Positions 49,899-52,626 of a stretch of 64,000 bases of DNA are shown one piece after another. The notes under the pieces are model-generated. The model ran no database searches and was not told the DNA's origin. It saw nothing but the letters and a program-made list of their open reading frames with translations. Source of the DNA: Mucilaginibacter phyllosphaerae (GTDB taxonomy: Bacteria > Bacteroidota > Bacteroidia > Sphingobacteriales > Sphingobacteriaceae); NCBI RefSeq assembly GCF_004378255.1, contig NZ_SNQG01000002.1, positions 248,001 to 312,000 of the forward strand. The letters run 5' to 3'. The number at the start of each line of letters is the position of its first letter. Position 1 is the first letter of the stretch. Position numbers and translations under genes: made by a program.

Positions 49899-50630
49899 AT
49901 GAAGAAGCTTATATACCTGCTGATATTGCTGGCTGCCTGTAAAGGCCCCGATAAAAAAGCCGGCCCGGCTTTAAAAGTACCGGCAAAAACAACTGCAGCC
50001 GCTGATACAGCTTTTATAGTAAAAGAAAAGGGGAAGGATTTTTACCATGCCGTTTATATAGAGAAGGATAGAAATGCCAGGGTTTATAAAGCGTTACTCG
50101 ATTTTAAATATGACCATAACGACAGTGTCGCTTACAAGGCAAATTACAGGGTCCTCAAGATCCGTAACCGCAAGCCGCTTAAAAAATATGATCTGGAGGG
50201 TTTGCCAAATGATTGGTTGCCCCTTAATTTATATAAAGGCAAATATTATTTATATGCACCCTGTAACTGGGGCAATGCAGGTATAAGGCACTTAACCGAT
50301 AGCACGCTTAACTATTATAACGCCGATGGGCCCGACCCAAAGCCGATACTGGATTTTAAAAAGCAAACCGATCGTAAGTATAACCTGGTATCAATGCCGT
50401 TTTACCAGTTTGTACGGTCTTCAAATATCACTATTTATGTTATCGACCCTAAAAATTGGATAACCGTTTGGGAAGACAGGTCCTTACCTTTAGATTACAG
50501 GTATCGGCTGTTTGTGGCCAAAGAACATGCCGCCAGTTACGATATGATAGTTAACAATTGCAAAACAGAACGCACCCTTGAATTTGATTTTGAAAAGGTA
50601 AACTTTAAAAAACTGATCAAAGGGCTTTAA
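49899..50630 (+). CDS. Hypothetical lipoprotein, 243 aa
   Basis: A 243-residue lipoprotein with a very short signal (KKLIYLLILLAACKG; lipobox LAAC). The mature part is rich in Tyr, Asp and Lys (FYHAVYIEKDRNARVYKALLDF, PCNWGNAGIRHLTDST) and predicted mixed alpha/beta. No catalytic motif or known family. It begins 22 bp after the AraC gene, so the two may be cotranscribed. Its stop codon overlaps the stop of the convergent gene by 3 bp within TTAA. Confidence 0.7.
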   Translation: MKKLIYLLILLAACKGPDKKAGPALKVPAKTTAAADTAFIVKEKGKDFYHAVYIEKDRNARVYKALLDFKYDHNDSVAYKANYRVLKIRNRKPLKKYDLEGLPNDWLPLNLYKGKYYLYAPCNWGNAGIRHLTDSTLNYYNADGPDPKPILDFKKQTDRKYNLVSMPFYQFVRSSNITIYVIDPKNWITVWEDRSLPLDYRYRLFVAKEHAASYDMIVNNCKTERTLEFDFEKVNFKKLIKGL

Positions 50631-51529
50631 TTGCCCGGGGTCTGATAGTAATATATGGGCGCGTAAATACCCTCGCTGGTGGTGTAGTAACCTTTTCCAT
50701 CCGGGGTAAATGCAATAGCCTCGCCCTGCTTTTCCTGTTTGTAGGTTAGCTCGCGCGGGCTGCGTTGAAGGGTTTGCCATACAGGCTCATTTGCCTGCCG
50801 TTTCCAATAATAAACCTTCTCGTAGCTTTTTACCAGAATTTGTTGCCCATCGTGCGATATATCTGCCGCAGTTATCCATTTAAAAGGTTTTAAGCCTTTA
50901 AAAAACAGCCTGGCCCTAAACGTAAGCGTTACAGTATCATTGGCTTTATAATTAAGCGGTGTTGTATATACGCCAACACTATCACGGCGTTTGGTAATAA
51001 TGTAAAGCAGTTTCTGAATAGGGTCTATAGCCATAGCCTCGGCATCTTTAGGGCCGTCGGGATATTTTACGTTGAGTTGCACCGGCAGGATATGCATCAG
51101 GCTGTCTGTTGCCCATTTTTTGTTTTCCTGGGCGCGATAAACAACTATAAAGCTTCTGGATGAGCCGTTGTCGCCAATATCGCCAATGTAAACATAACTT
51201 TTGCCTTTAACAGGGCCGGGGCCAACGGCAATATCTTCGCAATCGCGCACGGGCCTGATGTGGTCGCCGCCAAAGTAGATGGTAGATTTTAGCTTGCCAT
51301 CGGCAGTAATGGCAAAAAAACGGCTGGTGTCGCCGCTGTCGTTATGGGCATAATAAATATCCGGGCTAATAGCCGATGCTGCCAACCCCGATGTTTCATC
51401 CATTTCTTTAGAGTATAAATGGCTTTCGGGCAGGTGCTTACTATCAATTAAGCGGTGCTTGGCATAGGCCGCTATGAATGCCAGGCATAATATGGGTACA
51501 AATATTTTTAAAGCCTTACTTTTAAACAT
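50627..51529 (-). CDS. Secreted beta-propeller-like protein
   Basis: A 300-residue exported protein: N-terminal signal or anchor helix (IFVPILCLAFIAAYA), then repeated strand units. Examples are METSGLAAS-like KEMDETSGLAAS, YYAHNDSGDTSRFFAITADGKL, VRDCEDIAVGPGPVKGKSYVYIGDIGDNG and YPDGPKDAEAMAIDPIQKLLYIITKR. The acidic DCEDIA and DAEAMA turns recall calcium-binding phytase-like or SdiA-regulated propellers, but the phosphate-binding residues of phytases are not evident. Periplasmic, function unknown. It starts 69 bp downstream of the desaturase stop with a bidirectional terminator between. Confidence 0.75.
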   Translation of the reverse strand: MFKSKALKIFVPILCLAFIAAYAKHRLIDSKHLPESHLYSKEMDETSGLAASAISPDIYYAHNDSGDTSRFFAITADGKLKSTIYFGGDHIRPVRDCEDIAVGPGPVKGKSYVYIGDIGDNGSSRSFIVVYRAQENKKWATDSLMHILPVQLNVKYPDGPKDAEAMAIDPIQKLLYIITKRRDSVGVYTTPLNYKANDTVTLTFRARLFFKGLKPFKWITAADISHDGQQILVKSYEKVYYWKRQANEPVWQTLQRSPRELTYKQEKQGEAIAFTPDGKGYYTTSEGIYAPIYYYQTPGN

Positions 51530-51597: not shown

Positions 51598-52626
51598 TTA
51601 TGCGTTTTGCGGGGCCATCTGGCCGTCTTTGGCAAAACTCATTTCAGCATCAGGTTTTGATACATCGGTAATAGCCACTTTACCACGCTCTTTACGCAGT
51701 ATCCGGTTAAATAACGAGATCTCCCTGTCAAACAAAAACTGGAAGAACAGCTTGGTCCACGAGGTATGGTAGTATAAGGTATCGTAATACTCGGGGGCTG
51801 TCTTTTTTATCTCCGGTAGCCTGTTCCAGGGGATAGAAGGAAAATCATGATGCTCGTTATGAAAACCTACGTTAAAAGCAACCGCATTAAAGTTACCGTA
51901 ATAGCTGTACGTTTCCTGCTCAACACTGTGGGTTAAGTAATGCTCCTGGATCCAGCGGGCGCCCAGTGGGTGCAAGCCTACCGAGAAGGAGAAGCTTAAC
52001 AGCAGGAAAGCTAAGGCATGCCATCCCATAAATTGATAAATAACAACAGTAAAGGCTATCTGCAGCACCCAGTTGGTCAGGATCCAGCCGTCAAAAGGAT
52101 GGATCTCGCGCAGGCGCGACAAGCGGAATAACTGAAACACCGGGAAAAACAGCAGCCACAAAGCTTTACCCAGGAACGAATTGCTGATCAGCTTTGCCTC
52201 CCAACGGTTTGGCAGATCGGCATCCAGCTCATGGATTCCCTGAAAAGAGTGGTGTTTGATATGATATTTTTCGAAAGAGATTGCGCTTGGCAGTATTTGC
52301 GGCAGGTTGGCAAACATAGATGCCCATCTGTTAGCGTTGCGGTTTTTAAACAACAGCTGATGGGTACACTCGTGGATCATTACAAACAGTGCGTGGTCTG
52401 CAAATGCGCCTAACAAATAGGCTGCACCAAATACCAGCCACCAAGACTGATCGCGCAGAAACCAGGCCAGTACTACCTGAAATGCCACCAGGCCAATTAT
52501 AGCCCAAATGGTTTTTGGGTTTTTTCCTATTAAATTCCTTAGCTGCGGAAACTGCTTCAGTATCTTTTTGGTTCTGATACGGTGCGGCTCTGATTCGCTG
52601 GAATAAACAAAATCCGTTTTTTTCAT
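51598..52626 (-). CDS. DES1-like sphingolipid delta-4 desaturase
   Basis: Membrane di-iron desaturase of 342 residues from the ATG at 52626; the frame is open for 30 more codons but relatives begin near this Met. It shows three His boxes, HECTH (85-89), HIKHH (122-126) and HNEHH (256-260), and four or more membrane helices. The similarity to eukaryotic dihydroceramide delta-4 desaturase (DES1/DEGS1) is striking from memory: an N-terminal EPHRIRTKKILKQFPQLRNL block like its lipid-desaturase N-domain, MFANLPQILPSAISFEKYH, GLHPLGARWIQEHYL and ETYSYYGNFNAVAFNVGFHN with HEHHDFPSIP following. General bacterial acyl desaturases do not carry this block order. Sphingobacteriaceae make sphingolipids, so a ceramide substrate is plausible. 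No sphingolipid gene adjoins it. Confidence 0.88.
   Translation of the reverse strand: MKKTDFVYSSESEPHRIRTKKILKQFPQLRNLIGKNPKTIWAIIGLVAFQVVLAWFLRDQSWWLVFGAAYLLGAFADHALFVMIHECTHQLLFKNRNANRWASMFANLPQILPSAISFEKYHIKHHSFQGIHELDADLPNRWEAKLISNSFLGKALWLLFFPVFQLFRLSRLREIHPFDGWILTNWVLQIAFTVVIYQFMGWHALAFLLLSFSFSVGLHPLGARWIQEHYLTHSVEQETYSYYGNFNAVAFNVGFHNEHHDFPSIPWNRLPEIKKTAPEYYDTLYYHTSWTKLFFQFLFDREISLFNRILRKERGKVAITDVSKPDAEMSFAKDGQMAPQNA

Follow-up and report, generated by a model that had tools for sequence, protein, structure and literature searches.

Locus and protein architecture

The stretch of DNA considered here, referred to as the window at its whole length of 64,000 nucleotides, derives from Mucilaginibacter phyllosphaerae (phylum Bacteroidota; contig NZ_SNQG01000002.1, positions 248,001 to 312,000) and contains an open reading frame (ORF) at 51598-52626 that encodes a membrane desaturase of the DES family of 342 amino acids (P0001). 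An earlier note, made from the letters of the window alone, had taken this protein for a bacterial homologue of the eukaryotic dihydroceramide delta-4 desaturase DES1 (DEGS1), which in animals introduces the last double bond of ceramide, and the comparisons presented below suggest, with a probability of roughly 0.7, that it is a delta-4 desaturase which requires oxygen and acts on N-acylated long-chain bases. The ORF that had been observed is real, but it lies on the minus strand, the plus-strand reading of the same interval being interrupted by many stops. A form of 372 amino acids starting from an upstream ATG is disfavoured; the alignment of the relatives begins at a start of the MKKTDF type. 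The features of the gene are as follows.

51598..52626, minus strand: DES-family membrane desaturase, 342 amino acids (ORF, domains and similarity to vertebrate DES)
52513..52620, minus strand: N-terminal Lipid_DES domain, residues 3-38 (PF08557, 44.0 bits, cut-off 23)
52360..52374, minus strand: first His box, H85-ECT-H89 (alignments)
52249..52263, minus strand: second His box, H122-IK-HH126 (alignments)
51847..51861, minus strand: third His box, H256-NE-HH260, with N257 as in DES1-named proteins and not the M/V of DES2-named proteins (alignments)
51895..51915, minus strand: ETYSYYG block, residues 238-244, common to vertebrate DES (alignment)
51952..51957, minus strand: R224-W225, the mark of bacterial clade A, clade B and vertebrates having His-Phe (alignments)

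The protein matches Pfam FA_desaturase (PF00487) with 96.8 bits (cut-off 29.7) in addition to Lipid_DES, and a vertebrate DES1 used as control (P0122) scores 95.1 and 74.4 bits with these two models, respectively. The N-terminal domain, the three His boxes and the order of motifs that had been noticed in the translation (GLHP at residues 217-220, EHY at 228-230, ETYSYYG at 238-244 and NVGFHNEHHDFPSIP at 252-266) are all confirmed. The proposed homology to DEGS1 likewise holds, as both domains, the three His boxes and a full-length resemblance to nine vertebrate DES1 and DES2 proteins demonstrate (BLASTP, 34.7-38.8% identity over 312-322 residues, E 1e-69 to 7e-80). The histidines of the boxes are invariant in an alignment of 65 rows and in one of 60 rows with vertebrates; the latter, which comprises both bacterial clades and the vertebrates (61 sequences, one truncated row excluded), has 45 invariant positions. 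The window DES is presumably an active enzyme, in which a di-iron centre and O2 would drive the desaturation and a trans double bond would probably be placed between C4 and C5 of an N-acylated long-chain base, with dihydroceramide as the likely substrate and N-acylcapnine, a sulfonolipid, as a possible further one.

FA_desaturase is common to ordinary fatty acyl desaturases and hydroxylases, which act on phospholipid or fatty-acid chains, and two DES-bearing genomes described below are without either base-forming enzyme at the thresholds applied. Nevertheless, it is very improbable that the window protein belongs among such enzymes, since Lipid_DES lies over its cut-off, the resemblance to DES extends over the full length, and the bacterial acyl desaturase model DesA (NF052548) yields 24 bits against a cut-off of 500. 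The ordinary desaturase models that the protein touches, three NCBIfam equivalogs, do not recognise it and reach 21-26 bits against cut-offs of 350-500. Four genes of the source genome have PF00487 matches (five matches), Lipid_DES occurs there at one place only, namely the window DES gene, and one further desaturase-like protein of the genome matches the window protein weakly, at 24% identity over 207 residues in one direction and with a 22-residue piece in the other.

The family also includes proteins named delta(4)-desaturase/C4-monooxygenase DES2, and 'sphingolipid 4-desaturase/C4-monooxygenase' is the name that JGI gives to some relatives. Both designations would fit a C4-hydroxylase or a DES2-like bifunctional enzyme making 4-hydroxylated (phyto) bases. 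Among the matches listed, the third box has N directly behind its leading His in 44/46 DES1-named vertebrate proteins (exceptions P0169 and P0191) and in 0/40 DES2-named ones, which have M or V in 40/40; 34 of the 120 vertebrate-type rows listed had no usable name and were left uncounted (20 N, 11 M, 3 T). The window protein has N257 where a DES2-type box carries M/V before EHHD, and N is found in 121/121 proteins comprising the window and its close relatives listed, in 120/120 of the list of clade B type and in 38/38 genome loci. The second residue of the first box, among the same matches, is D in 40/40 DES2-named and E in 42/46 DES1-named proteins (three unread, one D); E is present in the window protein and in 34/38 genome loci (3 D, 1 unread), the D in three of these bacterial loci being the weak spot of this comparison. 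The combination of N and E in the His boxes favours a plain desaturase, and a hydroxylating enzyme is regarded as quite unlikely.

Distribution, clades and origin

Lipid_DES was found over its cut-off in 39 of 395 genomes sampled from the phylum, in 0/14 control genomes and in 19 of 237 genomes drawn from the class of the window. A search of named genomes returned 220 stretches matching query peptides, of which 207 encode a relative; the best 80 of these 207 loci encode proteins that are 72-95% identical to the window protein, and 74 of them are titled Mucilaginibacter.

In a tree with 62 rows (38 loci without the one that is truncated, 13 further bacterial proteins, nine vertebrates, the window protein and two outgroups) three groups are supported, namely clade A with 34 rows including the window protein (92/86), clade B with 17 rows (99/94) and the nine vertebrates (100/100). 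Identity to the best row among the nine vertebrate DES amounts to 44-50% for clade B and 36-42% for clade A. Position 224 separates the groups as well: it is Arg in 121/121 clade A proteins among the matches listed (the window protein included) and in a further 34/34 clade A proteins, and His in 120/120 clade B proteins listed, in a further 4/4 clade B proteins and in 106/120 vertebrate-type proteins listed, the motif not being visible in the other 14. The clade B proteins of four genomes of one family (f24; L154-L157) are 45-49% identical to the best vertebrate DES versus 43-44% to the window protein, and four other genomes of this family carry clade A DES instead. All DES rows are placed together with respect to the outgroup (95/95), yet the outgroup branches are saturated, with a length of 10, and the eukaryotes are represented by nine vertebrates; the rows with printed names among at least 120 eukaryotic-family matches listed are likewise vertebrates. 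Owing to the saturation of both outgroup rows, no root, oldest DES group or direction of transfer is claimed.

The earlier note had also raised the question of transfer. A recent acquisition from a eukaryote is rejected on the grounds of an ordinary base composition (G+C fraction 0.464 for the gene versus 0.446 for the window), its distribution in Mucilaginibacter and its placement in a bacterial clade apart from the vertebrates; the DES gene is settled in its genus. The DES1 reading stands in part, with DEGS1 homology, the N-terminal domain and the serine palmitoyltransferase described below in its favour and without the recent transfer. None of the three findings that the earlier note had named as refuting it was made, although the root of the tree is unusable.

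Base-forming enzymes and the substrate

It had been proposed to check whether serine palmitoyltransferase (SPT) is encoded elsewhere in the genome, and this is the case: an SPT at G000:C6:357946-359127 (L115:1369-2583) scores 749.6 bits with the NCBIfam model NF047600 (cut-off 640) and 616 bits to the SPT structures 8guh and 3a2b. Directly after it lies a GNAT-family protein (L115:2615-3763, 29.1 bits, cut-off 20.7), which could be a candidate N-acyltransferase, that is, a bacterial ceramide synthase. In addition, the source genome encodes a cysteate fatty acyltransferase homologue (G000:C10:624079-625308, L120), a protein that has no match to a curated family model and gives 547 bits to 28eh, a structure named cysteate-C-fatty acyltransferase, 546 bits to 7u7h and 225 bits to SPT. 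With both enzymes, the organism is predicted from its gene content to make sphingolipids as well as sulfonolipids. In Chryseobacterium, cysteate synthase and cysteate fatty acyltransferase have been described as the first two enzymes of the sulfonolipid pathway, six bacterial versions having been tested (PMC11211663), and sulfonolipids carry a sulfonic acid where a sphingoid base has its C1 hydroxyl (PMC3463246). As this change sits at C1, the C4-C5 region would be alike in both bases, and both are plausible substrates.

Co-occurrence was assessed in 300 genomes of the class from two draws (98 within the phylum draw and 237 in the class draw, 202 of them new), with counts tallied by hand and then tested statistically. 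SPT was called by a match over the NF047600 cut-off and the cysteate enzyme at E 5e-163 or better in the first draw (the rest of the class lying at 1e-67 to 1e-75) and at E 1e-110 in the second. DES is carried by 26 of these genomes: 10/15 with SPT and the cysteate enzyme, 0/9 with SPT only, 14/254 with the cysteate enzyme only and 2/22 with neither. DES goes with SPT (10/24 vs 16/276, p 4e-6, kinship ignored) and is not tied to the cysteate enzyme (24/269 vs 2/31, p 1.0, kinship ignored). Five of the ten carriers of DES and SPT belong to the genus of the window. The 25 DES carriers from other classes have an SPT-like enzyme below the cut-off (E 3e-143 to 4e-158), as do most genomes there; NF047600 was the best family for the six SPT-like proteins scanned out of twenty fetched from these classes. 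In 17 of these 25 carriers there is no cysteate-enzyme match better than E 3e-69 but an SPT-like enzyme, and their DES all belong to clade A.

Ceramide is not necessarily the substrate, since the source genome has a cysteate-enzyme homologue and other carriers of DES possess the cysteate enzyme but no SPT over the cut-off. It may even be that the enzyme desaturates N-acylcapnine alone, ceramide being no substrate, as the far closer resemblance of the L120 protein to 28eh than to SPT, the 14 of 26 DES-bearing class genomes with the cysteate enzyme and without SPT over the cut-off, the lack of DES in the nine SPT-only genomes and the clade A Arg at the position of a vertebrate His would allow. 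Such exclusivity is considered unlikely, given the association of DES with SPT and not with the cysteate enzyme, and the 17 carriers from other classes that combine clade A DES with an SPT-like enzyme and no strong cysteate-enzyme match.

The gene had been described as standing alone, and this is accurate in the sense that the same-strand gene which follows it (50627-51529) is without a Pfam match and that DES loci contain no base-forming gene. The 39 DES loci reach about 6-7 kb at most per side, most neighbours being without other annotation, and none of their 435 ORFs matches the SPT, the cysteate-enzyme homologue or the SPT-adjacent GNAT protein of the source genome (E 1e-5); a lipid operon around DES is accordingly rejected. 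Besides DES, the sole neighbour cluster common to three families in these loci is C1 (six genomes, unannotated). Directly downstream of the window DES lies a predicted protein of 300 amino acids (50627-51529, minus strand), a homologue of which adjoins DES in 5/5 compared loci of the genus. No terminator after the DES gene was reported by the scan, and an inverted repeat downstream is visible by eye.

Several observations weigh against delta-4 desaturation of N-acylated long-chain bases. No base-forming gene adjoins DES in the 39 loci, SPT does not exceed the cut-off in 16 of the 26 DES-bearing class genomes (among these, G413 encodes an SPT-like protein of 505 bits), and the genomes with SPT only are devoid of DES. 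When the genus of the window is reduced from five genomes to one, the association with SPT in the first draw changes from p 0.0003 to p 0.03. Both SPT and the cysteate enzyme are missing, at the thresholds applied, from the DES carriers G561 (99% complete) and G594 (68% complete), so that a substrate outside both pathways is conceivable; owing to its completeness, G561 weighs more than G594 and constitutes a serious objection. G510, a congener of G561, has the cysteate enzyme. Furthermore, N257 and the E of the first box may represent the ancestral state only, activity could differ from that of vertebrate DES because R224 stands where clade B and vertebrates have an unchanging His, and a search of titles and abstract starts in the open-licence literature showed no publication on a measured delta-4 base in Mucilaginibacter.

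Significance and comparison with known systems

Bacterial sphingolipids are usually considered to be saturated. A search of titles and abstract starts in the open-licence literature found no characterised bacterial delta-4 sphingolipid desaturase, and the family label is not new, as JGI already names close relatives 'sphingolipid delta-4 desaturase'. In Black Sea water, ceramides whose base contains one double-bond equivalent are reported to represent about half of the ceramide structures and are attributed to bacteria (PMC11334938); the word 'desaturase' is absent from that publication. Because those waters lack oxygen at depth, an O2-dependent enzyme of the DES type is not an obvious source of these ceramides. 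The enzymes of sulfonolipid biosynthesis are described as largely unknown in PMC11211663, and the DES gene is a candidate for the formation of unsaturated sulfonolipids. If the enzyme is active, the bacteria that carry it would form the sphingosine-type double bond on their own, and a check would be needed before unsaturated ceramides from soil or host samples are assigned to eukaryotes. As a broader and tentative proposal, one that we hold to be possible and no better than that, Bacteroidota may possess an ancient and separate DES branch, the Arg-Trp clade, making both 4,5-unsaturated sulfonolipids and sphingosine-like ceramides; it would then be the desaturase so far lacking for unsaturated capnine lipids, and the double bond of sphingosine would not be a eukaryotic speciality. 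The existence of bacterial DES clades also allows hypotheses on how the eukaryotic enzyme arose to be tested.

Compared with vertebrate DES1/DEGS1 and DES2/DEGS2, the window protein has both domains, the three His boxes, the ETYSYYG block and the 45 invariant residues in common, and it shares N257 of the third His box with the DES1-named proteins. It differs from the vertebrate enzymes in its overall sequence (35-39% identity), in R224-W225 for His-Phe, in Gln129 for Leu and in its bacterial lipid context, in which SPT and a cysteate-enzyme homologue are present. Clade B, which among named rows includes Balneolaceae, Saprospiraceae, Reichenbachiella and Ignavibacteria, is similar in domains and His boxes (40-46% identity, 17 rows) but forms a separate clade with the vertebrate-like His at position 224 and its higher identity to the best vertebrate row. 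Finally, the Mucilaginibacter proteins that JGI designates 'sphingolipid delta-4 desaturase' and NCBI 'fatty acid desaturase' are of the same family (74-91% identity among the 120 listed), and the window gene belongs with them.
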